Assembly (NCBI RefSeq): GCF_030246865.1
Contig: NZ_CP126738.1
Location: 2,232,001 to 2,296,000, forward strand
Length of the DNA stretch: 64,000 nucleotides
Reading direction: 5' to 3'
Source of the DNA: Microbacterium sp. zg-B96
GTDB lineage: Bacteria > Actinomycetota > Actinomycetes > Actinomycetales > Microbacteriaceae
The number at the start of each line of letters is the position of its first letter. Position 1 is the first letter of the stretch. Positions 15,979 to 59,127 of the stretch are shown piece by piece. The notes under the pieces were generated by a model that saw only the letters and a list, made by a program, of their open reading frames with translations, was not told the DNA's origin and made no database searches. The position numbers and the translations under genes were made by a program.

Positions 15979-16135
15979 GCGGCCAACCTATGCCCGTCAC
16001 AGCATCGCGTCGACCCCCGCGCTGACTGCCCTGACCGTGCCACGAAATGGGCATTTCATGTCATGTGGGGGTCTTTCTCTCCGACGTAGCGTCGCTGGCA
16101 CAACGTCGTGAACCCGCGCCGAGAGGAAGCTGATC

Positions 16136-16837: not shown

Positions 16838-16840
16838 GCC

Positions 16841-16858
16841 ATCGCCGGCAGCGGCGAT
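16841..16858. terminator. Bidirectional hairpin between convergent genes
   Basis: A perfect 7-bp stem, ATCGCCG and CGGCGAT, with the 4-base loop GCAG fills the 20-base gap between the + gene ending at 16837 and the - GH15 gene ending at 16858. There is no T-tract, as is common in actinobacteria. Function as a shared terminator is inferred from position. Confidence 0.5.
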
Positions 16859-41566: not shown

Positions 41567-42196
41567 TCAATGGAAGTCGAAGGTGAGCTCGGCGCTCGGG
41601 TCCACCCCGTGGACGATGCCGGAGTAGAAGGTCCTCGCTTGCTCCTGCAGAAGCGCCCGATTCTGATGGATGTAGTCCAACCGCACAGGATCACTCAGAA
41701 CCCTGTTGATCATCTCGGTGTCATCGATCTCGGGCGTCACCCAGCTGAGCGCGCCGTTGCTCTGCACGACCACCTTGAAGGGCGAGCCGTCGTCGCTGAT
41801 GAACTCGTGCCCGATGAAAATGAACTCGGGTATCGAGATGAGAAAGTCGTTCTCTGCGGTCTGCTCAATGTCGACGTCAGCACCCTCGAGGCCTAGCTTC
41901 GCTGTGAACTCATACCGCAAGAACGATGCCCGATCGCTGCCGGGTATTTCCATGCCGAAGAAACTGCTGTTCGCGCTCTCCTCTTCAATGCCTTGGATGC
42001 CGAGGCTCACGAGCACAACCTGCTCCTCCGTCGTGATGGCCTGGCGCATCTGCGTGCTGCGAGACTCCGAATCCGCGGCCAGCGCCGAGTTCATGAACGG
42101 CCCCAACACGCCGGTTCCCATCAGCGCCACCAGCGCAATGAGACCCGCGACCGAGAGCGCGGCGAGAGCCACAAAAGTGCGGCGCACCCCCCTCAT
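41567..42196 (-). CDS. DUF4230-type membrane-anchored protein
   Basis: 209 residues. N-terminal membrane helix TFVALAALSVAGLIALVALM; the exported part begins ESRSTQMRQAITTEEQVVLV and continues with beta-strand pattern and KVVVQSNGALSW, matching the DUF4230 family in order and length. Function unknown in the family. It is convergent with the ADP-ribosyltransferase gene and next to an McrC relic. Confidence 0.65.
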   Translation of the reverse strand: MRGVRRTFVALAALSVAGLIALVALMGTGVLGPFMNSALAADSESRSTQMRQAITTEEQVVLVSLGIQGIEEESANSSFFGMEIPGSDRASFLRYEFTAKLGLEGADVDIEQTAENDFLISIPEFIFIGHEFISDDGSPFKVVVQSNGALSWVTPEIDDTEMINRVLSDPVRLDYIHQNRALLQEQARTFYSGIVHGVDPSAELTFDFH

Positions 42197-42837: not shown

Positions 42838-42996
42838 TTAAGTCTTGTCCAGGTAGTCCAGGATCATCGCGAGGTCCTCAGCATCCTCCGCACCGTACAT
42901 CTGCATCGCCTGAAGCTCTTCGTCTCGGTCCACGCTGCTGAGGCTACCCGTCCGTCCGTCGGTTCTCCGCACGACCTCGACTCCACGCTTGGTCAC
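42838..42996 (-). CDS. 52-aa acidic protein closing the DrmA/DrmB operon
   Basis: GTG 42996 overlaps the stop of the alpha/beta hydrolase gene (GTGA), a sign of translational coupling. The sequence starts basic (VTKRGVEVVRRTDGRTG) and ends acidic and helical (RDEELQAMQMYGAEDAEDLA, then MILDYLDKT). No family recognised. Position and coupling suggest it belongs to the defence operon, perhaps as a regulator or inhibitor of the hydrolase. The TAA stop at 42838 is followed by non-coding DNA. Confidence 0.6.
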   Translation of the reverse strand: MTKRGVEVVRRTDGRTGSLSSVDRDEELQAMQMYGAEDAEDLAMILDYLDKT

Positions 42997-44789
42997 GTTT
43001 CCAGCGCAGCCTCCACTTCCGGTTCGAGCGCGTTCTCGCGAAGGTAATCCAGCGCACGCTCTACGGCGACGATCTTCGCCTTGAGCTGCTTGATTCCAGG
43101 CGCCGAGGGGTCCGAGAACTCGTCGAGACGCTCGTGCTCGCGACGCACGTTGATTTCGGTCTCCACCAGCGTCTGCCACACGGAGGGATCGGATTCCAGA
43201 TGCTGGCGCCGACGCAGGATCTCCGTCGCGAGCAACCGTTGCACCACCTCCTCGAGCGCCTCGGCCGTCGTGTTCGGACTCGCGAGTCCGAGGGCGATTC
43301 CTCCGCCGCCCGCTGTCACGAGCGTGCCGGCCGTCAGCAGCCCACCGATCATGCCCCCGGGCCCGAAGGTCGCGAGCGCACTGGTCACCACCGCAGCGCC
43401 CGCGAGACCCGCACCCGCTGCGAGCGCCAGTCCGCCGGTCGCCACGATGATCGCCGCCGCACCGGCCCCCAGCGCGCCCCACTTCAGCCAATTCACGGTC
43501 CTACCGGCGAGGATCTCGCGCGCCGTCTTGGAGGCATCGAACACATCCGTGCCGTACTTGCTTCCCAGACCCATCTCCGCGGTCAGATCTTGCATCGCGC
43601 CTCGGAGCTTCTCGGTCGGGATCGATATCTCGAAGGGCCGGATGAGGTTTTCGGAGGCGAGGAGCGTCAGCACGACGACCGCTTCGTCCTTGACGATATG
43701 CACTGCGGGCGCGGGCTCCGGCGCGTCGACCGCGGGGTCGGATAGGTCGAATGCCAGCGAGGCCAGTGCAGCCGGAGTCTGCCTGCCGGTGACGGCGTTG
43801 CGCGCAACCAACTCATCGACGACGGTCGCCTGCACAGAGCGGAGCGCGCCGGCGAACCGTTCCCGCACATCTCCCTCCAGCCCCAGCTTGATGAGATGTG
43901 CGTAGCGCAACGCCAGGAGAGCAAGCAGTTCGGTGGCATCCGGCGGAATGTCCGCGACTCGCCCGATCCTCGCGACTTCCTTCGAACGGGAGCCGAACAA
44001 CGCGAAGCCGATCGCCTCGGCGACGACATCAGCCCCGAGGTACTCGATCGCAGAATGAGCCCGTTTGGAGGGCGGTGCCTTCGTGTCGATGCGGAAGTCG
44101 ATCATCCAGGGGAACACTGATGAAAGGCCGCGGTGTGCTGCCACCAAGTCAGAGGTGTTCCAGAAGTTCACCCACCAGGCGAGGTTCGCCGGCGGCTCCT
44201 TGAGCGATTCCCTCAGCTTGTCGACGTCGAAGCCGGCGTGCGCCAAAGGGCTCCCGATGGTGATCATCCCCACGACTTCGAGAGCGACCGGCAGTCGACG
44301 CACGAGGTCCGCCGCGATGACCGATCCGAGGCTGTGCCCAACGATGACGATCCGCCCCGAGGAGGGGAGCTTTGCAAGGATGCGGTCCAAGACCTGCGCG
44401 CGAATCCTGCCATCAGTGAGGTAGCTGCGCGCCTGCTTGAACGGCGGAAGGGCCACGGCTGCACCCACGGCGACGTCACCACCCGGCAGACCGGATCCAG
44501 GACTGTGGCGGCCGAGCCTGAACTCGATCGCCCCCATGCGACGCTCGAACACCCGGCGGTTCTGCCTTGCAGCGTCGCGTCCCGGCTGCTTCACGGTGAT
44601 CGGAGGGAGATCCACCTTTTCGTCCCACCCTCTGAGCGCGTGCGCGTACTTGGGTGCGATGACTTCCGCAGTGTCGAGACGCGGATAGCCGAGCGCGGTG
44701 AGGGTTTCCGTGAGCCTCGCTTTCCACAGATCTTCGCGGTCTCCGGTGCCCACCCCATGCAGGAAGAGCAGGATCGGTCGGTCCGACAT
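42993..44789 (-). CDS. Alpha/beta hydrolase with C-terminal membrane hairpin, defence-operon member
   Basis: 598 residues. The first 230 are a lipase/esterase-like alpha/beta hydrolase: oxyanion HGVG (11-14), nucleophile Ser153 in GHSLGSV, and ITIGSPLAHAG as strand 6. His candidates follow around RAHSAIEY. Residues 435-520 form Gly/Ala-rich hydrophobic segments (WGALGAGAAAIIVATGGLAL, AGLAGAAVVTSALATFG, MIGGLLTAGTLVTAGGGGIA) that could insert in membranes. The C-terminus is charged and coiled (RRRQHLESD, REHERLDEF). ATG 44789 lies 2 bases after the DrmB stop. A lipase-like effector acting on the membrane is a reasonable inference; standard DISARM has a phospholipase-D-type DrmC at this place instead. 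Confidence 0.8.
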   Translation of the reverse strand: MSDRPILLFLHGVGTGDREDLWKARLTETLTALGYPRLDTAEVIAPKYAHALRGWDEKVDLPPITVKQPGRDAARQNRRVFERRMGAIEFRLGRHSPGSGLPGGDVAVGAAVALPPFKQARSYLTDGRIRAQVLDRILAKLPSSGRIVIVGHSLGSVIAADLVRRLPVALEVVGMITIGSPLAHAGFDVDKLRESLKEPPANLAWWVNFWNTSDLVAAHRGLSSVFPWMIDFRIDTKAPPSKRAHSAIEYLGADVVAEAIGFALFGSRSKEVARIGRVADIPPDATELLALLALRYAHLIKLGLEGDVRERFAGALRSVQATVVDELVARNAVTGRQTPAALASLAFDLSDPAVDAPEPAPAVHIVKDEAVVVLTLLASENLIRPFEISIPTEKLRGAMQDLTAEMGLGSKYGTDVFDASKTAREILAGRTVNWLKWGALGAGAAAIIVATGGLALAAGAGLAGAAVVTSALATFGPGGMIGGLLTAGTLVTAGGGGIALGLASPNTTAEALEEVVQRLLATEILRRRQHLESDPSVWQTLVETEINVRREHERLDEFSDPSAPGIKQLKAKIVAVERALDYLRENALEPEVEAALET

Positions 44790-44791
44790 GC

Positions 44792-46594
44792 TCAGCCGAT
44801 TTCCGAGGCGCGGCCGGTGCGCTGCCCGAGGATCGCATCCAGCACGCCGTCGAAGTAGCCGCGCACATCGTCGCTGCCGACGACGAGCGCCCGATCGAGA
44901 AGGAGGTTCTGCGACTCACACGACGTCTCGGATGCAAGACAGCAGGCGTGGCAGGCGGCGAGGTTGAGGCCGTCGATGCTCTGCGGTTCCGATTCGATGC
45001 ACACCGGGTCATTGGGGCACCAGGCTGCCTGCTCGAGGGCGCGGACGATCGCGGGAGCGAGGAGGTCTGGTTCACCCTGTCGGACGAGCCCCCCGAGGGT
45101 TCCCTCGACGTCGGACGACGTCGTGTAGATGAAGACCCCGTAGTCGCCGTCCGACTCGCAGTAGATCCGCTCGCGGATGGATGCCGCGGTGTAGCCGCTG
45201 CCGAATGCGAGCTCGCGCATCATGAGATGGGCGAACGTGTGCAAAAGCACATACTCCGGCGATACGACGTGCAGCCGCCCGCCCAGACCCGACGGATTCT
45301 GATTGGCGAGCAATTGGTCGCCGCGACTCTGGACCTCCTCCTGCCCCGCCCAGGCACGCACGGCTTTCTCCGGGAAGCGGATGAAGATTCCCTCCCCATG
45401 TCCCTCGATCGCCGGCAGCCACTTGCGCTCATGCGGCAGAACGGGTGCCGCCGCGACGAGCGCGGCCTCGGGCGTGTAGCGGCGGAAACCGAGTACTGCG
45501 CGCACATCGCGCAGCCGGTCAACCAGCACGACATCGGAGAGGAGGCCGCCCAGCCGTCCGCCCGCCGCGTCAGTCGACAGAGACGTCACCCGAGTGGAGA
45601 ACCCCTCGGTCGGCGCCGAGTCTGTCAACGCCGCGATGAACGCCTCGTACTCGGCAGCCAGCAGGCCGCTTCTGGTGGCGCGGACGTCGAGGGTTCCCCC
45701 GGCCGGGGCAGGCACCGCCAGTTCGAGGATGACGGCCTCAGGAATCCCTGTTTCTGCCGCGATCTGCGCTACCAGGATCTGACGGGCCGTCTCGTCGCCC
45801 ACGACCGCAAGGGCTGCGAAGGCTTTGTGAGCGCGAAGCTTCTCAAGGTGCTGTTCAGTGCGACTTTCCACGGTGGGGATGTCGATCGCACTCATCGTGT
45901 CGGAGAAGTGCAGACTCGTCGCTCCGCGTTGTTGCGGATCGATCGGCTTGCCGCACTGTCCCCAGCTGCTTTCCCACGGCTGCTTCCCGCGGCAAGTGAA
46001 CCCCTCGACAGCGAGGACGTCGCGGCGCAGGTCGCCGAGGCTGCGGCGGTGTCCGCAACGATCGCATCGCACCTGGAGGCTGCTCAGGCCCTCTGCTCGC
46101 CCCTCCGCAGATTCGAACTTCAGTTTGTCGGATGCCGCGCAGTCGCCGTCATGGTCGCGATGCATCCACTCGACCCAGGGGATGTCGGCGAGGTGACTGT
46201 TCGACATGCACACCGCGACGAAGCGCATCGGTACGAGTCGCCCGTCGCACGCGGCCTCCGGACACTGCGGGATTCGACCGGTCTCCATGGACCGCGTCCA
46301 CTTCACCATCCGACGACAGACCTGGCAGAAGAGCCAACCCGGGAACCGTTCGAACTCGAGTCCGGGCGTCTTCTGGTTCTCGGGGCTGTGCGTCGTCGGC
46401 GCCGCCCAGAGGTCGTCGACGCCGAGGGCGTCGACGAGTCGGTCTGAGCTGACTCTGCTCCGCACCTTGGTCGACGGCCAGCGGTCGCCCGTCGGGACCA
46501 TGAACGATTGACCGAGGATGTCGACGATCGCCCCCGGGCCGTAAGGCGACACCGTTTCCGACGCGCGGATCGTCTTCACGTTCAGCTCAGCCAC
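44792..46594 (-). CDS. drmB: DrmB-like DUF1998 zinc-ribbon protein (DISARM)
   Basis: 600 residues. The N-terminal SETVSPYGPGAIVDILGQSF is the conserved DrmB opening (FGPGAxVDL). Several Cys clusters that can bind zinc follow: CQVC, CPEAACDG, CDRCG, and near the C-terminus the DUF1998 block LLHTFAHLMMRELAFGSGY, CESDGDYGVFIYTT and NLAACHACCL. In DISARM, DrmA and DrmB form a complex that loads on DNA. The GTG start at 46594 lies 8 bases inside the DrmA gene, so the two are coupled. Confidence 0.9.
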   Translation of the reverse strand: MAELNVKTIRASETVSPYGPGAIVDILGQSFMVPTGDRWPSTKVRSRVSSDRLVDALGVDDLWAAPTTHSPENQKTPGLEFERFPGWLFCQVCRRMVKWTRSMETGRIPQCPEAACDGRLVPMRFVAVCMSNSHLADIPWVEWMHRDHDGDCAASDKLKFESAEGRAEGLSSLQVRCDRCGHRRSLGDLRRDVLAVEGFTCRGKQPWESSWGQCGKPIDPQQRGATSLHFSDTMSAIDIPTVESRTEQHLEKLRAHKAFAALAVVGDETARQILVAQIAAETGIPEAVILELAVPAPAGGTLDVRATRSGLLAAEYEAFIAALTDSAPTEGFSTRVTSLSTDAAGGRLGGLLSDVVLVDRLRDVRAVLGFRRYTPEAALVAAAPVLPHERKWLPAIEGHGEGIFIRFPEKAVRAWAGQEEVQSRGDQLLANQNPSGLGGRLHVVSPEYVLLHTFAHLMMRELAFGSGYTAASIRERIYCESDGDYGVFIYTTSSDVEGTLGGLVRQGEPDLLAPAIVRALEQAAWCPNDPVCIESEPQSIDGLNLAACHACCLASETSCESQNLLLDRALVVGSDDVRGYFDGVLDAILGQRTGRASEIG

Positions 46595-49500
46595 GACGCT
46601 CTCCGTTCGCCCGCACCCGCACGACCTCGTCGACGTTGCGCATGGAGTTCATCACCGGCCACCCCCGGCCCGGCTCGGTGAACTGTCTCATCAGCCGCTC
46701 ATCCTGGTCGCGTGATTGATACACCAGCTTCTTACCCTCCTGCTGGGCCCGGTTGCGGGCGTCCACCCACTCCAGTACCGCTTCGTCGATCTGCTCGGCC
46801 ACTTTCTCGGCTTCCCTCGGATCGGCTCGCGCGACGTGTTCGTTGAGAAGCTGTACCGCCTTACGGACGCCCGCGGACTCCGGGTCGAAGAGCGCGGCAT
46901 CCGGGTTGTCCGAGAGCCCCACACCGTGACGGACCAGAATCACGAGCGCCGCCCGAAGAGCCCGGCTCCGAGCCTGCGGCGACCACGGCGTCACGCTGGA
47001 GGGTTCGACGAAGCGGTAGAACGCCTGATGGTACGGACCGAACGACTCGAAGATCGACCGGTCACGTGCCTTGCCTGATCGGAACATGGTGACGACCAGA
47101 CCCGGGGTCTTCCCTCGGCCGACCCGCGACGTCGCTTGGATGTACTCCGATGTCGTCTTGGTATGGCCGTTGACGAGCATGACGCCGAGCCGGCTCACAT
47201 CGATGCCCACCGACATGATGTTCGTCGTGGCGAGCGCATCGATCACCTGCGCGTCGTCAGGCCCTTTCTCCAGCCGCGCGAGCAGGGCGATCAGTTCGGC
47301 GGAGTCGACGTTGCCGTTCAGTTCGTGGACACCGTCTCGTCCGATCGCGCGCGACAGTCCCTCGGACTTCTGCCGCCGGATGAGGTTCGACGGCACATCA
47401 TCTCGGAGGATGGTGACCGTGCGGCCGAGCTCACGGAGGCTGTTGTGGTAAACCACGAGAGTCCAATAAGCGTCCGCCGCTCCGCCCGCGAGGCCGACCG
47501 CCACGGGGGCGTTCAACAGCTCCGCCGAGAGCTGGCCGACGGCCCACGACGGGGTGTGCGCCTGCGGCATGATGCCCAGATAGAGGCGGCCGGCCGCGTC
47601 CGGGTCGGGCTCAGAGAAGTAGTTGTCATCGGCGTCGAGCCCCGTAGGAGGGAAGGACTCGACATCCTTCGCCATCAGGCCCTCCACCTGACGTCGAGAT
47701 GCCCGGGTGGTCGCTGTCGAGGCGACAACCTTCGGCGCTGTGCCGCGCCACCCCAGCAACGCTCCGATCGCCGCTTCGTATATGCCGACGATCGTCCCGA
47801 GCGGTCCGGACAGCAGGTGAAGCTCGTCCTGGATGATGAGCGAGGGCGGGAGCGAAACGCTGTGCGCACCGAAGAGCCGCCCGCCTTGCGGGATCCAGGC
47901 GAGACGCGCGAGCTTGTCGACCGTCGCCACCAGCATGGTCGGCGGGTTCTCGTAGAGACCCTCATCGACGACCTGGACGGGTAGCCCGTGGTGGAACGGG
48001 CACGCCTCGTCGGGGCAGAACAGTTCGAATCCATAGTCAGACGAGCGCACGCCGTATGCCTCATCCCGCGAGGTGTGCCGCGGCGGCATGATGGGGTGCG
48101 AGCACCAAGGGCACACGAGGACCTGAAACGGATTCTCGGGAGTGGCTTGAGCGCGCACCTGCCTCATCTGCTTCGCGGCCGCCTTGTAGGTCCCCGGGGT
48201 CGTCGAGTTGCCGAGCCACATGCCGATCGAGAATGCGGGCGCCCCGTCGAGACGTTCGTCGTCATCGCGCAGCAGTTCGAGCGCGCAGATCAGAGTCGCC
48301 GCCCGTTGGAACTGCTGGGCGGTCAGCAGCCGCATCGTGTAGCGGGTGAGGACCGCCAGTCCGCCGCCCTTCTGTCCGCCGACGATACGGCGGCGGATCA
48401 TCTCCACCGCCGCGAGCCCGAGATAGGCCTCCGTCTTGCCTCCGCCGGTCGGGAACCAGATGAGGTCGACGAGCTCGCGGTCCTCGTGGTCTTCGTCCAC
48501 GGTCGAGGCGAGGGCGCTCAGGATGAAGGCGAGCTGGAAAGGCCTCCACTGCGGTTCATCCGCGCCCTTGTCCGCATCGAGCGCCGCCCCGTAGCGCGTG
48601 TCCTTGGCGACCTTCTTCCCCTGCCTCAGCATCTGCCAGCGCATCGCGCGGTTGGCCATGCGGAACGAGGTGAGGACGTCCGGATCGGACGCGAGGAGCG
48701 CGACGCCTTCTTCGATACGGGATGCCGCCCGATCCTGCCGGTCGACGATGCGGTCGGCCACGATGCGCGCCTCGCCCACGACGTCTTCGGCGTCCCGGCG
48801 CTGACCCTCGATCCACGTCCGATAGTCGGACGCGACAACGCGGAGCGCTTCCGCGTAGTCCGCGGAGCTCAGGCCGTCGTCCGACAACCACCGCATCGAG
48901 TACACGTCTCCCGAGCCGACCTTCGCGCGGATCGCCGGCACCTCAACCGAGGGCAGCACGGTCGTCGACACCGAGATCGGAGCCACGGCCGGTGTCCACT
49001 CCACCGCGACACCGTGGCCGATCGCATAGGTCGGCTTGTGACGATAGCGGAAGGCCAGTTCGCGATCTTCCTCGTCGGATGTACCGAGCTGAGGGTACGG
49101 GGACAGTCCGCCGTCGTCGGTGCACTCCATCGAAACTTGGAACAGACAGAGATCAGGTCGACGCTTGGCCTCGCCCTGGCCGACTTCCTCCGCGTTCGAC
49201 AGGGACACCGTCGTCAGTCGCTTGCCCTGGTGGATCCGGGACCGCCACGACAGGCGCGCACGCCCGTCGAAGACCATCACGCTTCCGGAGCCCGTCACGG
49301 TGACCATCTCGCGGGTCGTCATCTGACGGCGGCGCCAGCGCTCCCGCTTGCCGGCGGCCGCCTGCTCGTCGCCTTCGGATGGTGCCGCATCGACCTTGGT
49401 GTAGACGCCCGCGTCCATGTCGACGGCGATGACGTCGCCCGAGTGCACGAACGACACGCCCATGGACTGGGGTGCCCACCCGAAGGCGCCGGTGATGTTG

Positions 49501-49817
49501 ATTCCCGGGTCTTCATCGTCGATGTCACCGGTCGCGGCGTCGAAGTCGTCGGCGACATCGATCTCCGGCGAATCCAGTGGAGTCTCGTCCACGTTCTCCG
49601 CCTCGACGTCGTCACTGACGGGAGCGGCCACACCTCGTTCGACGGGATAGAGGGTGCCGACGAGGTACGCGTATACGGGGCTGCGGTCGAGGATCTCCTC
49701 ATCGCCCCCGAGCGGGCCGAGCCAGCGTCGACGCAACTCCTCCGTCACGGCGTCTCGTCCGGCGCGCGGATCCGTGACCGGGTCGGCAGCGGCTTCGTGG
49801 TCGATGATGTCGGTCAC
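46587..49817 (-). CDS. drmA: DrmA-like helicase (DISARM)
   Basis: 1076 residues from GTG 49817, which overlaps the stop of the preceding giant gene (GTGA). The N-terminal 450 residues include the DrmA hallmark INITGAFGWAPQSMGVSF. The helicase core has Walker A WFPTGGGKTEAYLG (about residue 455), a DEAH variant LIIQDELHLLSGPLGT (about 660) and motif VI YIQATSRVGRGKTPG (about 900). The N-terminus also contains a long acidic disordered stretch (DFDAATGDIDDEDPG). DrmA is an SF2-type translocase in DISARM. Length and motif set match the family well. Confidence 0.92.
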   Translation of the reverse strand: MTDIIDHEAAADPVTDPRAGRDAVTEELRRRWLGPLGGDEEILDRSPVYAYLVGTLYPVERGVAAPVSDDVEAENVDETPLDSPEIDVADDFDAATGDIDDEDPGINITGAFGWAPQSMGVSFVHSGDVIAVDMDAGVYTKVDAAPSEGDEQAAAGKRERWRRRQMTTREMVTVTGSGSVMVFDGRARLSWRSRIHQGKRLTTVSLSNAEEVGQGEAKRRPDLCLFQVSMECTDDGGLSPYPQLGTSDEEDRELAFRYRHKPTYAIGHGVAVEWTPAVAPISVSTTVLPSVEVPAIRAKVGSGDVYSMRWLSDDGLSSADYAEALRVVASDYRTWIEGQRRDAEDVVGEARIVADRIVDRQDRAASRIEEGVALLASDPDVLTSFRMANRAMRWQMLRQGKKVAKDTRYGAALDADKGADEPQWRPFQLAFILSALASTVDEDHEDRELVDLIWFPTGGGKTEAYLGLAAVEMIRRRIVGGQKGGGLAVLTRYTMRLLTAQQFQRAATLICALELLRDDDERLDGAPAFSIGMWLGNSTTPGTYKAAAKQMRQVRAQATPENPFQVLVCPWCSHPIMPPRHTSRDEAYGVRSSDYGFELFCPDEACPFHHGLPVQVVDEGLYENPPTMLVATVDKLARLAWIPQGGRLFGAHSVSLPPSLIIQDELHLLSGPLGTIVGIYEAAIGALLGWRGTAPKVVASTATTRASRRQVEGLMAKDVESFPPTGLDADDNYFSEPDPDAAGRLYLGIMPQAHTPSWAVGQLSAELLNAPVAVGLAGGAADAYWTLVVYHNSLRELGRTVTILRDDVPSNLIRRQKSEGLSRAIGRDGVHELNGNVDSAELIALLARLEKGPDDAQVIDALATTNIMSVGIDVSRLGVMLVNGHTKTTSEYIQATSRVGRGKTPGLVVTMFRSGKARDRSIFESFGPYHQAFYRFVEPSSVTPWSPQARSRALRAALVILVRHGVGLSDNPDAALFDPESAGVRKAVQLLNEHVARADPREAEKVAEQIDEAVLEWVDARNRAQQEGKKLVYQSRDQDERLMRQFTEPGRGWPVMNSMRNVDEVVRVRANGERRG

Positions 49818-52800
49818 TTCTTGCTCCAGAGGTAGTCGAACTCGTTGTAGGCCAGCTCCTTGCCGAACTGCTCAAATGTGTCGGCGACGTTCACGACGAG
49901 GCAGCGATCCGTTCCGCCATTGGCCGGACCGCGCAGCCCGCGGCCGACCATCTGCAGGTATCGGTTCGGACTGAAGGTGGGCCGTGCGATGTAGAGCGCC
50001 CGTACCTTCGGCGCATCGAAGCCCTGCGTGAGGAGGTCGCAGTTCACCAGCACCTGGGACTCACCCGACTTGAAGCGCTCGATCACGCGCCGGCGCTGGT
50101 TTTTGCGTACACCGCCGTCTACAGAGTCCGCCCGCACATTCTGCAGGCGCAGCAGGGCTGCGATGGTGTGGGCGGACGCAACGGATGCCGCGAAGACGAG
50201 GACGGGCCAGTCTGGTTCGTCAGTGAGCTGACCGCGGATGTGGTCGACGACTCCCTGTGTACGCCCCATGTCCTGACCGATCAGGGCGAGCATATTCGGC
50301 GTGACCTCATTCCACTTTCGGAATTCAGCATCTTGATCGTCGACGGCAATCGAGACGCCGTCAAGGATGTCGTAATCCACTTCAGACAGAACTCCGCGTC
50401 CGCGCAGCTCTCCTATCGCGTTATCGGGGTCAAGTGATTCGAGGCGGTTGCTGCCGAATCTCTCCACCAAGCTCTCGGTGAGTTGTTTACTCCGCCCTCG
50501 GTAGGGGGTGGCGGTAAGACCGAGGAGCGGACGCTCGGTACGTCTCGCTGTAAGGCCCAACGAACGGAGGATCGCCGTGTAGGTCTTTGTGCCCGCCGTA
50601 TGGGCCTCGTCGATCACGACGATTCCAGGACCAGTGAGCCAGCCGTACTGCGGCTCGTCAAGTCGGCTCACCAGCGTGTCGTCGATCGCGACCACGACCT
50701 GCAGCTCTTCGTTGGACTCATCCAGCTCGTGACCCGACCAGAAACGGCTCACGTCGAGCGGGCGTTCATCGCCCATCCAGCGCCACACCTCCGCGAAAGC
50801 GGTGATCGCCTGCTCGCACAACTCCTCATTCTGCGCGATCCACAGCACCGGCGCCTCGATGTCACCGCTCTTGAGGAGGTGAAGCAGGGCTTCGACGGTG
50901 ACTCGGGTCTTACCCGCACCGGTGGGGAGATAGAGCAGCCCGCGTTTCCTGACGGGATCACTCGTGGTGGCCAGATCGGTGATCTGGGCCGCGAGCGCCT
51001 GTTGGAAGTCGTGCAGCTCGTTGAGGAAGACCTGTCCCTGCACCTGGGTCACAGAGGCTCGCCGCGCTTCACGGCTGCCGGCGTAGGAGGTGTCGAACCC
51101 CAGACGCTTGACGGCGCTCTGCGCACTCGGCGAGCCGTCCCACTGCTTGGGAACAGGAATCCCCGCGCGAGCCAGATCGTCACGGATCGCGCGAACCGCG
51201 TCTTGCCCTTGAACCTGCAGGAACAGTTCCGCCGTCTCGCGATCACCCAGCTCGCCGGTGCGCGACTCGACCGCCGGCAGGAGGCCCTTCGGGAGTCGCT
51301 GCCGGAGGGTGTCTGCCCCGACGAGGATCAGCAGTCTCTCCTCGTTCGTCCGGGCGAGCTGAGCCTTCTGGATCAGTCCGCTGCGACGCATCCGCTCATC
51401 GTCCTCGATCACGCCCCGCACGTCGTCCGCGGAGAGCCCGAGGTCGAGCGCGGCAGAGAGCTGCTCGAGCACTCCTTGATCATCCATCGAGGCGTCGACG
51501 ATCACTACGCCGTCCTGCTTGGCAGCCATGAGACGGCGCTTGGTCACGCCGTGGATGCTTTGCAGAACCCGGGCGATCGACTCCGCGCGCGCGAGCTTCT
51601 GCTTGGCGAGTCGGGTGACGACTCGGGCTTGGAGACTCGGGTAAAGGTCGAGAACAGGAGTGGTATCGCTCATGCCGCTGACCTCCAGCGACTGCTGAAG
51701 CGCTTCGCCGGGCGTCAAGAGGCTCCATCGGTTCACGAGCGCACCGTGTTCGCCGTGCGTGGGGATGTGCGCAACCCCGGCTTCGTCGAGCGCCGCGACG
51801 TCCGAGCCCTTGTCGGTGACCGCGACCTCGTTGGCCGGCGCGAGTATCACCGTCCCACGGAGTACCGCAGGAATCATGCCGGGCGCAGAGAGCGAATCAC
51901 GGGCAGCGCAGACCCGCAGCAGTTCCACGAATGCGTCCGGGCCGGTGGATGCGATCTGGTATCCCTCCTTGCCCAGGAAGTCGCGGAGGAGGGAGTCCGG
52001 GACGGAGCTCACCTCGGCGGCGAGACCGGTGACCGCACTCAGCTCAGCGTCCGCGGCGACGGGGAGGTAAGCACCGAACTGCATGAGACGCGACGACACA
52101 GCGGATGTGAGCTCACACGGGCCGAGCGTGGTGGCGATCTTCCCGAAACCCCGAACCGCCCACCACTCGAAGGACGAGGCGGGGATCTCCGCGGTCTTGC
52201 CTCGCCCGAGAGGGACCTTGAGGATGACATCGCGGCTCGGCATCGCCCGGAGCACCGCTCGGGTCCAGAAGACGTTCTCGGCGTCCGTCAGCTTTTCCTG
52301 GAGGATGGCGAGCGGGCCGACTCCGTCCGTGTCGGGCACGACGACGCGAACCGCTTCGTAACCTTCGCGGGCCAAGTAGGCGCGCGCCATCGACTCGATC
52401 GCGGCGACATACTGCGACCTGAGCGCCTCGCGGTGGAGCGGATACCCTCGCTTCGGCGCGTCGACTGCGCCCGCTTCGCGGACGAGCGTCATGTTCGGCA
52501 CCTGCTCCGTGTCGACATGCCGATCGAGGATCTCCGTCGCGAAGGTGGGGTCTGCCAGCACCTCGCAGGCGGGGCGCCACGTCCCCGCCTTCGTCGGCAG
52601 AAGCACGTCCACGCCCCTGCCGCGGATGCCGCGGATCACCGTGGCCGCGACATGCGGACTCGCGGCGCCGATGACGGTCCAGAACCGTCGCCACTCCTGC
52701 GTGGACCATCGATCGCGTGCGCCGTGTCCGAGAGCCGACGCTGTCTCATCGGCGGAAACCACCCGGAAGCCCAGCGCCCGCAAGTGATCCGAAACGTCAC

Positions 52801-54475
52801 CGAACGCCGCCGATTGCGGGTCGACGAGCTTGACGCCCGCCGGTACGACGGCTCCGTCGAGGGGCAACAGCACCGACGCACTCGCGCCGGCACGAGCCCA
52901 GCCGCCATCCTCGAGCGGGACGATCTGCGCCGAACCCACCGCTTCCTTCATCTCCGAAGAGACGGGCGCGAGCGACGCGGCGATGAAAAGCGCCGCTTCG
53001 ACGTCGGCCATCTCACCACGGCGCGCGAGCTCTTCGAGCCACGACGCGACCGATGCTTCCCGCGACGAGCGCTGCTCATCGGATCCGCCGAGCAGCGTGC
53101 GCAGTCGAAGCCGTCGCGTCGGCGTCGTGAAGCATTGCCAGTGGGGCATCGTCGACCGCGGGGCGCGTTCCTGCCAGGCACGCGCCGCACTGGGCGGGAT
53201 CGGCGTCTTCTGAAGATCGGGGACGCGGACGAAGTAGCCGGGCACCTTCAACTCACCCGTGACGTCCGGGATCATCGGCCTGACGATCGCCCTGCGGGGG
53301 ATCTCGTCCGACAGGAACGTGTCGGCGTTGCTACGCGCTTCACGTCCGCGCGCAGGGAACAGATCGAGGTGGGCACCGGTATCCGCCGGGGTCGAGGCGC
53401 GGGTCGCCACGTCGAGGAAGAGGTCCGCGGCGACCCCGAGCATCGCGCGGTTGAGAAGTGAGCCCGGTACAAGAGACGTGCGGTCGTCGTTGATCTGCCA
53501 AGGGGCGTTGAACACGCCGCTGGCCGTGGTCTCGTCGTTCAGCGGGAACCAGGCCCAGAGGCGCCCCACTCCCGCGCGCACCTCCGGCCGCACGGCGTAG
53601 GACACCTTCATCGCCTCACGCTGCGCGGTCGGCGGCAGGGTCGACGCCACGTCGATGGTCGGTCGGTACTCCCGCTCCGCATACAGCCACCGCTCCCTCT
53701 CACCACCGGGAGCGATGAGGTGGACCTCACCGTCATCGGGGTGACCCACGCGGACATAATCCCGGGCATCGGGCGCCGCTCCGGGAGACGCCTGGACGCT
53801 GATGCGCAGACGCTCGAGCGGCTTGAAGAAGAGGAGTGACTCGACGCTGAAGTCCAAGAGTTCTTTGCGCAGCCGGTCGCCCTCGCGGATGAGTGGCAGC
53901 TTCACGATCGTGGTCGCCCACCCTCTCATCTCAGCGATATTCGGGTCGTCCGCGGCGGCGCGTGACGGTTCGGCCAGCGTCGGGATGCGCAGCAGCGGCA
54001 GCCGCCCGCCCTCCATGGGGAGTCCGGAAAACAGCTCCGCAGTGTCGGGCGCGTTGAATTCGAAGCTGACGCTGCGGCTGTAGATCTGGGGATGATCCGT
54101 GATCCCCAGGATGCTCTTGAAACCCAGCCCGAAGCGGCCGATCTCCTCGCCGCGCTTGGTGCTGAGGAAGGCGTACGTCACCGCACGCAGACCATCCCGG
54201 GTGAATCCCTGTCCCTCGTTCGCGCAATACAACGCGCCGTCGGCAAGGCGGAGTTCGACCATCCCCGTCCCACCCGACGCCCCCACGGCGTCGACCGCGT
54301 TCTGCAGCAACTCGCTGATCTGGCGTGTGCCGTAGCCGCCGGTGCGGAAGCTGTCTTCCTGGCGGACATGCTCGATGAGCAGGTCCGGATCGTTCTCATA
54401 CGTCCGCAGTGCGGTCGCCTGTCGCGCTTCGATGTACGCCTGCAGTTCAGGCTCCATAAGCTCCGGCCAGCTCAT
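49814..54475 (-). CDS. GHKL/sacsin-type ATPase fused to an SF2 helicase, operon leader
   Basis: 1553 residues from ATG 54475 (GGGAGGGG 8 bases upstream); an earlier in-frame start at 54562 lacks a ribosome site. The N-terminal 250 residues are an HSP90/sacsin-like GHKL ATPase: N box ISELLQNAVDAVG (53-65), NEGQGF (86-91) and GRFGLGFKS (113-121). A middle of about 850 residues, mostly helical, is not recognised. The last 400 residues are an SF2 helicase with Walker A LPTGAGKTR (about 1180), VIDEAHTAG (about 1275), GLTATPYRG and QMVGRGLRG; they resemble type III/I restriction helicases but no nuclease motif is apparent. It stands where DISARM operons have DrmD or DrmE. Confidence 0.85.
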   Translation of the reverse strand: MSWPELMEPELQAYIEARQATALRTYENDPDLLIEHVRQEDSFRTGGYGTRQISELLQNAVDAVGASGGTGMVELRLADGALYCANEGQGFTRDGLRAVTYAFLSTKRGEEIGRFGLGFKSILGITDHPQIYSRSVSFEFNAPDTAELFSGLPMEGGRLPLLRIPTLAEPSRAAADDPNIAEMRGWATTIVKLPLIREGDRLRKELLDFSVESLLFFKPLERLRISVQASPGAAPDARDYVRVGHPDDGEVHLIAPGGERERWLYAEREYRPTIDVASTLPPTAQREAMKVSYAVRPEVRAGVGRLWAWFPLNDETTASGVFNAPWQINDDRTSLVPGSLLNRAMLGVAADLFLDVATRASTPADTGAHLDLFPARGREARSNADTFLSDEIPRRAIVRPMIPDVTGELKVPGYFVRVPDLQKTPIPPSAARAWQERAPRSTMPHWQCFTTPTRRLRLRTLLGGSDEQRSSREASVASWLEELARRGEMADVEAALFIAASLAPVSSEMKEAVGSAQIVPLEDGGWARAGASASVLLPLDGAVVPAGVKLVDPQSAAFGDVSDHLRALGFRVVSADETASALGHGARDRWSTQEWRRFWTVIGAASPHVAATVIRGIRGRGVDVLLPTKAGTWRPACEVLADPTFATEILDRHVDTEQVPNMTLVREAGAVDAPKRGYPLHREALRSQYVAAIESMARAYLAREGYEAVRVVVPDTDGVGPLAILQEKLTDAENVFWTRAVLRAMPSRDVILKVPLGRGKTAEIPASSFEWWAVRGFGKIATTLGPCELTSAVSSRLMQFGAYLPVAADAELSAVTGLAAEVSSVPDSLLRDFLGKEGYQIASTGPDAFVELLRVCAARDSLSAPGMIPAVLRGTVILAPANEVAVTDKGSDVAALDEAGVAHIPTHGEHGALVNRWSLLTPGEALQQSLEVSGMSDTTPVLDLYPSLQARVVTRLAKQKLARAESIARVLQSIHGVTKRRLMAAKQDGVVIVDASMDDQGVLEQLSAALDLGLSADDVRGVIEDDERMRRSGLIQKAQLARTNEERLLILVGADTLRQRLPKGLLPAVESRTGELGDRETAELFLQVQGQDAVRAIRDDLARAGIPVPKQWDGSPSAQSAVKRLGFDTSYAGSREARRASVTQVQGQVFLNELHDFQQALAAQITDLATTSDPVRKRGLLYLPTGAGKTRVTVEALLHLLKSGDIEAPVLWIAQNEELCEQAITAFAEVWRWMGDERPLDVSRFWSGHELDESNEELQVVVAIDDTLVSRLDEPQYGWLTGPGIVVIDEAHTAGTKTYTAILRSLGLTARRTERPLLGLTATPYRGRSKQLTESLVERFGSNRLESLDPDNAIGELRGRGVLSEVDYDILDGVSIAVDDQDAEFRKWNEVTPNMLALIGQDMGRTQGVVDHIRGQLTDEPDWPVLVFAASVASAHTIAALLRLQNVRADSVDGGVRKNQRRRVIERFKSGESQVLVNCDLLTQGFDAPKVRALYIARPTFSPNRYLQMVGRGLRGPANGGTDRCLVVNVADTFEQFGKELAYNEFDYLWSKK

Positions 54476-54639
54476 CTCTGATTCCCCTCCCAGCGAGTGG
54501 ACCCCCATGGTCCACACCAGGCTTCCGCCCAGCCGAGCGACGCTACGCACAACCTCCGACATCAGAGGAAACGCTCACATCACTCGCGAGCATACGAGAG
54601 AATGAGAAAGCTCTTATACCCGAGATCGGCGGACCCGTG

Positions 54640-55114
54640 CCTGCATCGCATCTACGTGCCCGACGGTGCTCAAGCACAACGGACCCAGATTCAAGGGCGG
54701 TCACGCCGTCTCGCTATGAGCGCGTCGGACATCCCGCGCTGGATCGACGAAGACGGTGTCCGTCCCGAGACGATTACGGTACTGGGTCCGTCGAACATGG
54801 GTGCCAAGGGGGCGCAGCAATAGCTCGCTGAACGCGACTTCCCCGACGCCCTCGTCAACGCGCCACGGGTGGCCGCGGGCAGCCGGTCACCTGAAGAGGC
54901 ACACCCCCGAGGGCCTGGATTTCTCCCGTCGTCGTCCTCTTCGATGTGTCGGACGGCGCCTTTCGCCCCGGCCCCGGGCGCACAGAGGCTAGTCGGAGGC
55001 AGACAAGCCGACAAGGAAACCAGTTCCGCTCGATCCTCCATGTCGCCGCGAGCCGCGCGCGACCAGCTGGTCATCACGCGGAAGAGCGCGCCCGGCGGGT
55101 TCCTGCTCGATTGA
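54640..55114 (+). pseudogene. UvrD/AddA-type helicase relic (C-terminal part)
   Basis: Several frames, taken in order on the + strand, give IDEDGVRPETITVLGPSN (motif IV-like), HLKRHTPEGLDF (motif V, normally HxxKGLEF), VVVLFDVSDGAF, NQFRSILHVAASRARDQLVI (motif VI) and SAPGGFLLD followed by a stop. Joining them needs at least three frame changes. The ATPase half is absent. This is the dead 3' end of a superfamily 1 helicase of the kind found in two-component defence systems, oriented away from the DrmA/DrmB operon and towards the Vsr gene. Confidence 0.6.
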
Positions 55115-55127
55115 CCGTCAGCGTGCG

Positions 55128-55583
55128 CTATCTAGCACGCACCTCGTGAGCGATCTTCAGGGCGACCGCTGCCGCGTCCTTCCGGACCTCGTGTTCCCAG
55201 ATCCGCAAGACATGCCAGCCGTTACCGCGCAGCACCTGATTCGTCTCGTCGTCCCGCTCGCGATTGCGCAGCCGCTTCGTGAGCCAAAACTCGCCGTTTC
55301 GAGCGGGAGCCTGATAGTGCTCGGGGCATCCGTGCCAAAAGCAGCCGTCGATGAAAACTGCGACGCGCGCCCGGGTGAAGACGATGTCGGCGGTGCGTCG
55401 TAGATTCGCAACAGGACGGACTGACACGCGGTAGCGGAGCCCGAGCGCATGCAGATGCCGCCGAACCAGGATCTCTGGCGACGTGTCGCGGCCGCGGTTC
55501 GACTGCATCGAAGCGCGACTACTGGGCGTGCTCGCCCATGACACGCCGCTCGACGCTTGGGCGTTCGACCCGCTGTCCCACAT
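55128..55583 (-). CDS. vsr: Vsr very-short-patch repair endonuclease
   Basis: 151 residues from ATG 55583, which has AAGGAGG 8 bases upstream. Vsr signatures in order: DTSPEILVRRHLHALGLRYR, the catalytic Asp in TADIVFTRARVAVFIDGCFW, HGCPEHY, the intercalating region FWLTKRLRNRERD and the end GWHVLRIWEHEV. Vsr nicks next to T:G mismatches produced by deamination of 5-methylcytosine, so it normally accompanies a C5 methyltransferase, as here (gene at 56920). It is divergent from the NaeI-like nuclease. Confidence 0.93.
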   Translation of the reverse strand: MWDSGSNAQASSGVSWASTPSSRASMQSNRGRDTSPEILVRRHLHALGLRYRVSVRPVANLRRTADIVFTRARVAVFIDGCFWHGCPEHYQAPARNGEFWLTKRLRNRERDDETNQVLRGNGWHVLRIWEHEVRKDAAAVALKIAHEVRAR

Positions 55584-56043
55584 CCGAGGTGCCTCCTTCT
55601 CCCACAGTAGATTTGATTCGACGAATATGCAGGCGATGGTGAGCGTCGACACGTCGACGAGAGCCTCGAGCGGGCGTCGACCGCGCCAACGGGCTGATCT
55701 CCGCCGCTGCGTCGGTCGTGATGCCCGGCGTCGCCCCTTCGTCGTCCTCGTAGCAGCGCCACAGCATGCAATGTCTTGGGGCCGTTCCGCGGATCCCGGC
55801 GACGTGACGGACCGCTATCGCCGTCGAATGCTCGCGCTTGGCTTCCGCGGGCATCCTCACGCGTCTCCGTCGAGTACTCACTATTTAATTGGGTGGGAAT
55901 CGAATCATCTTCGGGGCGTACTTGTTGCTCGCCGTCTCCACCGCAACCGATGCGATAGCGTCTCGAGAGTGAGGAAAACTGCGGTGCTGGCGGGCGGAAT
56001 CTGCGCGCCAGACGAGCGACCCGGTCACGCCGCCAGGGCTCAT
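55584..56043. other. Intergenic region between vsr and the NaeI-like gene
   Basis: About 460 bases of visibly lower GC, with AT-rich patches (ACTATTTAATTGGG at about 55880-55893) suitable for promoters of the divergent genes. The NaeI-like frame is open through this region without a conserved domain or a good start. No controller (C) protein gene was found. Confidence 0.45.
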
Positions 56044-56919: not shown

Positions 56920-58098
56920 CTAGGCGAAAGCCAGCTCCCTCTCAGCCCTCTCGACCGTCTGAGGTGCAAGGCGCGGCTTGATTTGCCTCGCGATGGCGCG
57001 CGCAAGGCCTGAAGGAACAGCATTCCCGATCTGGCGGGCAATCTGTATCTTCGTGCCGACCCATCGATAGTCGGCGGGAAAGTCCTGGATGAGCGACGCC
57101 TCGTAGTGGCTGATCACGCGATCAACCGACCGCACCGGGTCGCTGCGGTGCTTCCCATACGCCTCCACCCACTCACCGGCCTCCCATTGCGGGTGCAGGT
57201 ACTGCCCCTTCTCAGGTTTGAAGAACTCCGTCCGGATCGTGACGGACGGCATATCCCATCGAAGGCGCCCCATCACGTCCGTCGTTCCGGTCGGCTTCCT
57301 CGCCCAGCAGTTCGGCAGCAGCTCATCGGGCAAATCGAAACGACCTCCGCCGGGCGGGACAAAGCTATAACGATCCAGGCTCTTGCTCGTCGGTGTTCGG
57401 CGGATGTGCAAATCGAGTCCGCGGAATACGCCGGGCATCTCCTCCCCGAAGAAGGCAGATCGGCTGTTCGGGAGATCCGTGCTCTCCGGGTGCGGAGGGA
57501 GGGTGCCGATCACGTCCTTCACCGTTCTCCATGGAAGAAGGTCCGAGTTTTCGCCAGCATCCTTCGCGTGCGTAGGTGCAGGCAAGTCGATTCGTCCGAT
57601 CCGTGAACCTATGACGATCGTCCTCTTGCGGCGCTGTGCGACTCCGTAGTCGGCGGCGTTCAGCACGGCGTGTTGGAGCTCATACTCGGCCAGAGCTCCG
57701 TGGTCCGCTTCCGCAAGGAGCATGGCAAACTCCGGCGATTTAGCGAACCGGTCGACGTTTTCAATGACGAAGACCTTCGGGCGAGAGTGCTCGACGAAGC
57801 GCATGAACTCGCGCCACAGCTGGTTGCGCGGATCCTTGATGTCCTTCAGCCCGAGGTTAGAGAACCCTTGGCAGGGCGGCCCTCCGATGATGATGTCTGT
57901 CTCCGGGATCGCTTCGTCCGGAACGCTTGCGATGTCCCCCGCGATTACATGCTTCTCGCCGAAGTTTGCCGCATACGTCGCTGCGGCCGCCTTGTCCCAC
58001 TCCACAGCCAGCACGGAGCGGAACCCCTCGCTCGCGAAGCCGACCGTCATGCCCCCGCAGCCAGCGAACAGGTCAATCATGCGGAGGTTCTTCGTCAT
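56920..58098 (-). CDS. DNA (cytosine-5) methyltransferase
   Basis: 392 residues. Motif I MIDLFAGCGGMTVGF, motif IV GGPPCQGFSNLG with the catalytic Cys, motif VI FVIENVDRF, motif VIII QRRKRTIVIGS and motif X ARQIGNAVPSGLA are all in order; the target-recognition region lies between about residues 200 and 310. It lies between the NaeI-like and NgoMIV-like nuclease genes and should protect their common site, taken to be GCCGGC. ATG 58098 has a weak ribosome site; ATG 58080 is also possible. DISARM class 2 also uses a C5 methyltransferase, so a role with the operon at 42.8-54.5 kb cannot be excluded. Confidence 0.92.
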   Translation of the reverse strand: MTKNLRMIDLFAGCGGMTVGFASEGFRSVLAVEWDKAAAATYAANFGEKHVIAGDIASVPDEAIPETDIIIGGPPCQGFSNLGLKDIKDPRNQLWREFMRFVEHSRPKVFVIENVDRFAKSPEFAMLLAEADHGALAEYELQHAVLNAADYGVAQRRKRTIVIGSRIGRIDLPAPTHAKDAGENSDLLPWRTVKDVIGTLPPHPESTDLPNSRSAFFGEEMPGVFRGLDLHIRRTPTSKSLDRYSFVPPGGGRFDLPDELLPNCWARKPTGTTDVMGRLRWDMPSVTIRTEFFKPEKGQYLHPQWEAGEWVEAYGKHRSDPVRSVDRVISHYEASLIQDFPADYRWVGTKIQIARQIGNAVPSGLARAIARQIKPRLAPQTVERAERELAFA

Positions 58099-58119: not shown

Positions 58120-59127
58120 TCAGACATCGGGGTCCGCCCCCGCCGGACTGGGGGCAGAATCGGACTCGGCCAGCAGTTCAGTCTTCGGAACGCGCTGAAC
58201 CGTCCTGACGAGCTCGTCGTAGTCACGAATCCGGCCCTGCTGAATGAGCCGGTCGAACGTGCGTTTCGGAGACCACCTGCTGGGCTTCGTCGAGGCAACC
58301 TCCTCGATGGCGCGGGTCAACGCTGGAAGATCAAGGTGGTAGACACAGTCGATCGCTCCCGACCCATCCGCCAAGATCCGCAGCATGGCGGGCCGGGGCT
58401 CCATCGTCAGAACCGCGAAGTGGGGCATAGCGCCACGCCGTTGAGTTGCCAACCTAGATCCTTGCGAGATGCAATCCTGCGCACGATCGGTTCGCAGGGA
58501 CCATTTTGCGGACACCCCCGCGTACATGTGAATGTCGTCGTTCGCCCCGGCTCCACCGACTGTGAGGTCGACCTTGAGGATTGCTTCCTCAGGCATCTCC
58601 AAGAGCATCTGCCGCGTAAGCACATCCTGCTTCGCATATTGCGCGACCTTGCGCCGAAGCGCGGACTTAAGCTTCGTGGCCTCCGCCGACTTGGGCAGGC
58701 GATTAGCGAGTTCCTGAAGCTCATCCATCGCTCTCGAGACCGGCTTGTACGTCTTGCTGAAGCTGGGAAGCACGGCGAGGTGACGGTATTGCGAGAATTC
58801 GGCGACTGACCGGGATCGTCGAATAGATAAGTCGGGCCGTCGTGTCGCGAGGTCGAGCCGCGTAGCTTCCTCCAGCGCGGTGCCTGGGTCGGTGGGACCA
58901 ACCTGGCCGGCGATCACACCCAGCTGCTCGAAAAGCGCGTGACCAAGCTCCTTGGACTGCGAATCGTTGTTATCCGATGTATTCGGCGTCCCGTGCCTTC
59001 GGTAACCACACAGTTGGGCTGCGAAGCGGGCTGGCACAGTGACCCACTGTGCCAGATGGACGGAGGCGACGCAAAGAATCAGAAAGTTCGCGTGGCTAAA
59101 GTTTGTTCGAACGCGCAGCGCGAGCAT
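58120..59127 (-). CDS. NgoMIV-like type II restriction endonuclease (expected site GCCGGC)
   Basis: 335 residues; the N-terminal 30 are poorly supported because ATG 59127 lacks a ribosome site. Family markers in order: TSDNNDSQSKELGHALFEQL, RRPDLSIRRSRSVAEFSQYR, a possible metal-binding Asp187 (ILKVDLTV), the SxK motif Ser206/Lys208 in GVSAKWSLRTDRAQD, and RRGAMPHFAVLTMEPRP with DCVYHLDLPAL. NgoMIV cuts G/CCGGC as a tetramer. The residue 14 after the Lys, usually the Glu of KX13E, reads Gln222 here. It lies just upstream of the methyltransferase gene on the same strand (21-base gap). Confidence 0.75.
   Translation of the reverse strand: MLALRVRTNFSHANFLILCVASVHLAQWVTVPARFAAQLCGYRRHGTPNTSDNNDSQSKELGHALFEQLGVIAGQVGPTDPGTALEEATRLDLATRRPDLSIRRSRSVAEFSQYRHLAVLPSFSKTYKPVSRAMDELQELANRLPKSAEATKLKSALRRKVAQYAKQDVLTRQMLLEMPEEAILKVDLTVGGAGANDDIHMYAGVSAKWSLRTDRAQDCISQGSRLATQRRGAMPHFAVLTMEPRPAMLRILADGSGAIDCVYHLDLPALTRAIEEVASTKPSRWSPKRTFDRLIQQGRIRDYDELVRTVQRVPKTELLAESDSAPSPAGADPDV

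Follow-up and report, generated by a model that had tools for sequence, protein, structure and literature searches.

A DISARM-like operon of Microbacterium that joins DrmA and DrmB to a GHKL-helicase giant and an alpha/beta hydrolase

The described partners of DrmA and DrmB are few, and the locus considered here, from Microbacterium sp. zg-B96, raises the question of what kind of system the pair belongs to when it lies between a giant GHKL-ATPase/SF2-helicase protein and an alpha/beta hydrolase. The window, the whole stretch of DNA that was analysed, is 64,000 nucleotides long and comes from a genome assembled as one contig of 3.41 Mb. It holds four coupled open reading frames on the minus strand, free of internal stops, with adjacent genes overlapping or standing 2 bases apart: the GHKL/SF2-helicase giant (49814..54475), DrmA (46587..49817, overlapping the GHKL gene), DrmB (44792..46594, overlapping DrmA) and the hydrolase (42993..44789, beginning 2 bases after DrmB). 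The four-gene operon is real and intact, and the same gene order recurs in three relatives, L126/L215, L127/L218 and L216. The original prediction had counted five genes, the last a 52-aa open reading frame on the same strand (42838..42996). That reading frame belongs to no family and has no match in L126 or L127, where 10 kb past the hydrolase were available, and it was therefore placed outside the system; the predicted layout and its conservation in other genomes thus hold for four genes and fail for the fifth.

Comparison with one of these relatives, Microbacterium enclense (L126), delimits the unit further. DNA homology with the window starts at 54563, immediately ahead of the leader of the GHKL gene, and reaches 43021, ceasing 28 bases short of the last base of the hydrolase gene, and the 10 kb of L126 beyond the hydrolase contain a single 36-base match to the window. 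At the other end L126 extends only 212 bases upstream of the homology limit; a longer stretch of the same genome (L235) carries an ARMADA operon upstream, a point taken up below.

The names given to DrmA and DrmB at the outset are well founded. DrmA, a short form of this YprA-family helicase, matches the PADLOC DrmA model (5.4e-193) and one chain of the solved Serratia DrmAB pair (PDB 7s9v_A, 3e-151), and its 855.9 bits with NF038325 fall below the equivalog cut-off of 950. DrmB, an MZB/DUF1998 protein, scores 424 bits with NCBIfam NF038324 (cut-off 240) and also matches PADLOC DrmB and the second chain (PDB 7s9v_B, 1.1e-61). Both proteins align over most of their length with the Serratia pair, which bears out the description of the locus as DISARM-related. 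The DrmA alignment begins at Serratia residue 147, leaving the first 146 residues without a counterpart; it is in this N-terminal region that class 1 DrmA is said to bear an EVE-like domain (PMC12458937). An acidic stretch at about residues 60-113 aligns with the Serratia trigger loop, placed at residues 176-232 (PMC9142583). The Serratia complex loads on single-stranded 5' ends and shows lower ATPase activity with 5mC DNA (PMC9142583); by homology, the window pair would behave in the same way.

The giant is a composite of an N-terminal GHKL ATPase and a RadD-like SF2 helicase. NCBIfam recognises a sacsin-like ATP-binding domain and Pfam finds ResIII and Helicase_C, with the C-terminal end matching RadD-like helicases. 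Residues E84, N88, D91, N115, G117, G142, G145 and G147 of the GHKL motif are invariant in 28 aligned rows (residue numbers follow a 1582-aa form, the longest open reading frame, starting at 54562). The N-terminal part matches PADLOC TmtA (E 1.3e-46), the protein of the Tiamat system. Tiamat is a one-gene system, and the likeness is confined to the GHKL ATPase region: the best stretches of the TmtA models lie within residues 38-558, the best model covers residues 38-437 of the protein and positions 7-405 of its own 1538, and, unlike Tiamat, the rest of the giant is without a TmtA match.

Where the giant begins can be judged from its relatives. Script gene calls, which use GC3 and first start codons, give some starts that are too long, and in L217 and L218 the codons upstream run into a stop some 50 bases ahead of the same MSWPEL start. 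The long form starting at 54562 is thereby rejected in favour of the predicted start at 54475, which gives 1553 aa. Ahead of this start lies a 12-codon leader of the pattern MSEVVRxVxRLG (54527..54562, minus strand), read in aligned sequences and present in six of the seven loci compared, with the leader of L219 also read separately. A TATGCT box was read further upstream on the minus strand (54594-54589); it is missing in L220.

How far does this gene set depart from DISARM? In PADLOC, type I consists of DrmA, DrmB, DrmC, DrmD and DrmMI and type II of DrmA, DrmB, DrmC, DrmE and DrmMII, the PLD nuclease DrmC being required in both (PMC9252829). The window shares with DISARM the separate, overlapping DrmA and DrmB that can be aligned with the Serratia pair, a nearby methyltransferase and a position in a defence island. 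It differs in that the operon is without DrmC, DrmD, DrmE or DrmMI, and adds the GHKL-SF2 giant and a hydrolase after DrmB. No DrmC was matched by PADLOC among ten island proteins, no PLD match fell in the window (the PLDc_2 matches of the genome all lie outside it), and scans with PADLOC, Pfam and NCBIfam returned neither DrmD with DrmMI nor DrmE with DrmMII within the operon, in agreement with what had been predicted. On these scans we read the locus as a DISARM-like variant, not as DISARM in its defined form.

The GHKL-helicase, DrmA and DrmB form a recurring core. A survey of 394 genomes of the class gave, outside the window, 17 best GHKL matches with E below 1e-28 and frames of 1565-1658 aa, and 16 of these stand about 10 kb before a DrmB gene on the same strand, the exception being G118, where DrmB is some 27 kb away. 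DrmB was found in 59 other genomes of the class, of which 37 loci were fetched. Among 295 genomes of the genus, 29 have DrmB, the window included, and 12 of the 20 loci fetched from the other 28 carry the giant. Two of these 28 core loci (16 from the class and 12 from the genus) have a core gene broken into two frames, DrmB in L105 and DrmA in L224. Most of them also have an additional helicase between GHKL and DrmA (20 of 28): an SF1 UvrD-like protein in 12 class loci by BLAST, counting the query L091 itself, and in two more by their printed sequence (L112 and L114), and a NERD-helicase in L073 and five genus loci. No intact gene was found at this junction in L107, and the window and its clade have no helicase there.

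This recurrence bears on one alternative, that the locus is an ordinary DISARM system that has shed DrmC and the class proteins and relies in trans on enzymes borrowed from the host. Mixing and matching of nucleases has been proposed for DISARM (PMC9142583), and three PLD-type genes are present elsewhere in the genome. That said, the giant recurs with DrmAB far outside the genus and so is not random debris, and together with the lack of a PLD match in the window this makes the borrowing explanation highly improbable.

The quick tree of DrmA, which like that of the hydrolase carried long-branch warnings, places the window with seven genus loci in one group (8 rows, SH-aLRT 100) whose members have GHKL directly overlapping DrmA. 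GHKL-linked DrmA proteins as a whole fall into two separate groups, one with a NERD-helicase or no helicase and the other with UvrD, and DrmA proteins not linked to GHKL stand next to each. The association would thus have arisen, or been lost, more than once, which counts against a single class of GHKL-DrmAB systems.

Within the clade of eight, the giant does not change evenly. Its middle (about residues 441-1075) is the least conserved third in all 12 of the clade pairs compared (28 are possible), with the C-terminal part equal to it in L220/L221; between the window and L215 it stands at 64% against 81 and 82% for the other thirds. Such low conservation suggests recognition under selection, and the fast-changing middle is likely the recognition region. 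It is not the sole part to have changed, since L218 shows divergence over the entire protein (60/33/67% for the three parts), beyond that of DrmA (76%). Plasmid- or phage-borne copies of the giant were sought as well and discarded: none of 170 matching plasmid records and none of 1078 matching phage records cover 80% of it.

The gene that follows DrmB is far less constant than the core. It is the hydrolase in four of the eight clade members (the window, L215, L216 and L218) and a 5mC methyltransferase in two (L220 and L221); in L217, read by eye, an AddB-like nuclease gene and then an AddA-like gene follow, and in L219 the next gene is on the opposite strand, so that none is counted. Within the stretches fetched, the hydrolase occurs in none of 16 wider operons and none of five NERD-type operons. 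G281 and G290 each have a relative ahead of one of their GHKL genes, at distances of about 11 and 8 kb. The original prediction had the giant and a lipase-like protein taking the places of DrmC and the class-defining proteins; this fits the giant, a member of the recurring core, and only in part the hydrolase, which is one of several options after DrmB.

Even where it is present, the hydrolase has a history of its own. Between L215 and L216, DrmA and DrmB are each 91% identical and the hydrolase 63%; measured in 400-base steps, DNA identity stays at 82-91% through DrmA and the greater part of DrmB, falls to 77% where DrmB ends and stands at 63-67% across the hydrolase. L216 groups with M. oxydans (L148) in the hydrolase tree, and the window, L126 and L127 stand elsewhere. 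From this incongruence and the contrast of 63% with 91%, the hydrolase has been recruited or replaced at this place at least twice; on the sequence comparison, it is exchanged in place.

The description of the protein itself as an alpha/beta hydrolase with a hydrophobic segment is confirmed. Its sole Pfam match, Lipase_3 (E 4.7e-4), is under the cut-off, and neither PADLOC nor NCBIfam returned a match. S153, D214 and H245 are invariant in all 58 aligned rows, window included, and a GHSLGS nucleophile elbow contains Ser153, giving the Ser-Asp-His set of an alpha/beta hydrolase with D214 as the presumed acting Asp. The hydropathy profile shows a single hydrophobic stretch at residues 438-474, with a Gly-rich stretch behind it. 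A membrane effector is plausible on these features. The invariant triad, the hydrophobic segment, the tight coupling to DrmB and the exchange in place are suggestive of an effector role, and the assignment goes no higher because the family also occurs away from defence genes.

That wider distribution was followed with the hydrolase alignment through a collection of species genomes, which gave 158 relatives, 80 of them kept. Only two of the 80 (M. enclense L126 and L127) have the GHKL-DrmA-DrmB-hydrolase order. An early impression that the hydrolase is unlinked to DrmAB (adjacent in none of the first 20 loci, and in L037 on the opposite strand at a distance of about 8 kb) was overturned by these two and by the genus loci. 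A co-directional gene of at least 100 aa lies within 200 bp upstream in 46 of the 80 loci; 34 have none, three of them at a contig end. The matches listed for the 46 neighbours include Hhe (at least six), an HsdR N-terminal domain (at least three), GmrSD (at least two), DrmB (at least two) and McrBC (at least one), raw counts per model whose members may overlap. Also among the matches listed are metabolic and regulatory genes, such as a Na/Ala symporter (at least two) and a response regulator (at least three). Five viral stretches matched a pattern for the hydrolase, and none was confirmed.

Another neighbour of the family is a DUF4230-like protein, which adjoins the hydrolase in L141, L142, L143, L145 and L153 and in G106 stands beside a 46-residue hydrolase fragment. 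In the window it is a 209-aa protein with an N-terminal hydrophobic segment (41567..42196, minus strand), two genes from the hydrolase; a relative of it scores 26.9 bits for DUF4230, against a cut-off of 27. The gene was not found in L126 or L127. This protein, the ARMADA remnant with its Vsr gene and the SF1/NERD helicase of most relatives had not been mentioned in the original prediction.

These observations give substance to a second alternative, in which GHKL-DrmA-DrmB is the whole system, acting directly on foreign DNA, and the hydrolase would be cargo independent of it, either a stand-alone defence or a housekeeping lipase, that came to lie behind DrmB in one Microbacterium sub-branch. 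Hydrolase relatives do occur alone or beside unrelated genes, half of the clade is without the hydrolase, and the family has in some genomes its own DUF4230-like neighbour. Mere cargo sits less easily with gaps between DrmB and the hydrolase of 2 bases in the window and 16 in L126, with different alleles found repeatedly at the same place and with downstream homology to M. enclense that ends with the hydrolase. The cargo explanation is possible, if doubtful.

Upstream of the operon the window preserves traces of a different association. In G448, G660, G517 and G404 an operon divergent from GHKL encodes a BrxHII/DrmD-like helicase, a large methyltransferase, a YprA helicase with MZB and a UvrD/GajB helicase, and is followed by Vsr and a 5mC methyltransferase. 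ARMADA type II is given with the same composition and order (PMC12458937), and the label ARMADA-type-II-like is based on these two features. No ARMADA model came up in PADLOC 2023 for this operon, Pfam found neither of the end domains (RelE-like and Vsr) that ArmD and ArmC are described as having, and its methyltransferase has a type IIG enzyme as its best model, with DrmMI and PglX below. All four genes are also complete beside G594, G614, G290, G104 and G281, so that nine of the 28 core relatives adjoin a complete ArmA-D-like operon, in three relative orientations, a count for which only 10 of the 28 loci were searched beyond their first 20 kb. G485 has a truncated ArmA and no ArmB or ArmC.

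Of the order ArmA-ArmB-ArmC-ArmD, the window retains a decayed ArmD 3' end (54644..55123, plus strand), divergent from the operon and interrupted by an in-frame stop. L235-L238 share 70-71% DNA identity at their ArmD ends with positions 54710-55123 (E 1e-38 to 1e-44); positions 54644-54712 match another ArmD stretch. Next to it lies a Vsr-type endonuclease gene (55128..55652, minus strand) whose product is 72% identical to the ARMADA-linked Vsr of L235, the homologue on which Pfam recognises Vsr; a 311-aa reading frame at 55157-56092, at first taken for this gene, is in the wrong frame and belongs to no family. The order and orientation of remnant and Vsr are those of the relatives and mark the window as an ARMADA-deleted derivative. 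To judge by these matches, the locus descends from a composite arrangement of GHKL-DrmAB, ARMADA II and Vsr.

It could be that a composite ARMADA II locus has GHKL-DrmAB as an accessory wing, fully functional only with ARMADA, and that the window copy is a relic. The nine adjoining operons and the remnant with Vsr would fit, as would the genome's want of another ARMADA-like YprA gene, an ArmC query having found elsewhere one weak helicase-domain match (90 residues, E 3e-6). All four window genes are nevertheless still open with their motifs conserved, L219 lost ArmB and ArmC and still has the core, and ARMADA is reported to protect by itself in E. coli (PMC12458937, a preprint). Dependence on ARMADA is unlikely. 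ARMADA forms an operon apart from GHKL-DrmAB and has a fused YprA helicase of its own. ARMADA is described as direct and non-abortive (PMC12458937), so a membrane effector would not be expected a priori.

Further along the island, on the minus strand, are a 5-methylcytosine DNA methyltransferase (56920..58098; Pfam PF00145, the only one found in the genome) and an NgoMIV-like type II restriction enzyme (58120..59127; PF09015, 2.7e-23), the latter a neighbour outside the core. All eight clade genomes have a PF00145 gene no more than 18 kb from the core, and relatives of the window methyltransferase (26-88% identity, on either strand) occur in the fetched stretches of 15 of the 28 loci. The enzyme matches DrmMII models (best 2.8e-48) less well than DruM (1.2e-117) or type II (8.7e-82) models. 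Given its 46.5% identity to the ARMADA-linked methyltransferase and its adjacency to the NgoMIV-like gene, it may serve that restriction-modification system.

Among described systems, the nearest conceptual relative is the MORC/paraMORC group, in which, in the available text of PMC2292703, GHKL ATPases have SF2 helicases, cytosine methylases and Vsr as neighbours. All four are present at the window, where the GHKL protein is not assigned to a subfamily; unlike in the window giant, the GHKL and helicase parts are separate genes in that text, and DUF1998 does not occur in the paper. DISARM-like operons are described with ShdA or McrBC, not GHKL, in the accessible portions of PMC10270631 and PMC11090510, and the terms GHKL, MORC, sacsin and hydrolase do not occur in the main text of PMC12458937. 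In the open literature, which takes in neither subscription papers nor most preprints, no paper was found that has GHKL together with DrmA and DrmB.

The mechanism we propose begins with DrmA and DrmB, which from their homology to the Serratia proteins would form an autoinhibited helicase pair and load on foreign DNA whose 5' ends are single-stranded. The GHKL-SF2 giant, in the position of DrmD/DrmE, would be a second ATP-driven part that senses and remodels DNA, likely recognising it through the variable middle, and self DNA is probably marked by the linked 5mC methyltransferase. The membrane-associated serine hydrolase that follows DrmB in the sub-branch of the window would be an exchangeable effector, which attacks a lipid or an ester when the complex on the DNA has become active. 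Every biochemical step here, and defence itself, is predicted from sequence. A DISARM-like anti-phage operon of distinct make-up, working in this way, is our preferred reading, held tentatively as somewhat short of an even chance. A broader proposal would make the locus part of a third organisational DISARM class: a DNA-sensing platform of GHKL-helicase and DrmAB that was coupled to ARMADA II several times and that offers, behind DrmB, a plug-in place where a membrane serine hydrolase was recruited more than once, linking DNA recognition to a lipid-directed effector, and with the same hydrolase family plugging into Hhe, GmrSD, McrBC and HsdR-type systems. In that full form it is rather unlikely.

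If the preferred reading is true, the actinobacterial GHKL-DrmAB core, several times adjoining ARMADA II and ending in an exchangeable gene, would show sensor and effector swapping in helicase-based immunity. The window would offer a natural, ARMADA-deleted version of the DISARM half, and the hydrolase family is flagged as one that trails several unrelated nucleic-acid-sensing systems.

The GHKL-DrmAB operon of the window, which comprises genes for a giant GHKL-ATPase/SF2-helicase, DrmA and DrmB, is bordered at 54644-55652 by the decayed end of an ArmD gene and by a Vsr gene that is still open. These remnants show that an ARMADA type II operon (ArmA-D) once lay beside GHKL-DrmAB and has since been deleted.

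Upstream of the GHKL start, within 54527-54600, lies a short leader reading MSEVVRxVxRLG, which occupies this position across the inspected loci of the clade, the closest relatives of the operon. A TATGCT box accompanies the leader in six of seven clade loci, and in L217 and L218 the leader ends in a stop codon of its own. It is possible that this element acts as a regulatory leader or operator.

The surroundings also include a 429-aa gene (39615-40904) in which an ADP-ribosylglycohydrolase domain is fused to a dual-specificity phosphatase-like domain, and an HsdR-like gene (EcoEI_R_C; 59882-63265, 1127 aa). At the related locus L225, a methyltransferase (15743-17212) with 88% identity to the window's NgoMIV-linked methyltransferase adjoins a GHKL-DrmAB operon of the NERD-helicase type.

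Relatives of the window's alpha/beta hydrolase are repeatedly adjoined by a DUF4230-like protein (41567-42196 in the window), as at L032, L033, L141-L143, L145, L153 and L049; by impression from the sequence, its neighbours at L049 are a fragment of the hydrolase on one side and a GTPase-like protein on the other. Hydrolases from contigs titled Planococcus sp. APC 4015 (L127; the title looks wrong) and Sporosarcina beigongshangi (L130/L158) cluster with actinobacterial ones.

Five loci (L079, L074, L075, L080 and L083) share a gene cluster of DrmA-DrmB without GHKL, followed by a further gene. That of L079 (14604-17501), whose 965-aa product was the one scanned among the five, encodes sigma-70 regions 2 and 4; the protein also has a match to MzaA in PADLOC. 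Such a sigma-70/MzaA-like protein is unusual company for DISARM-like genes.
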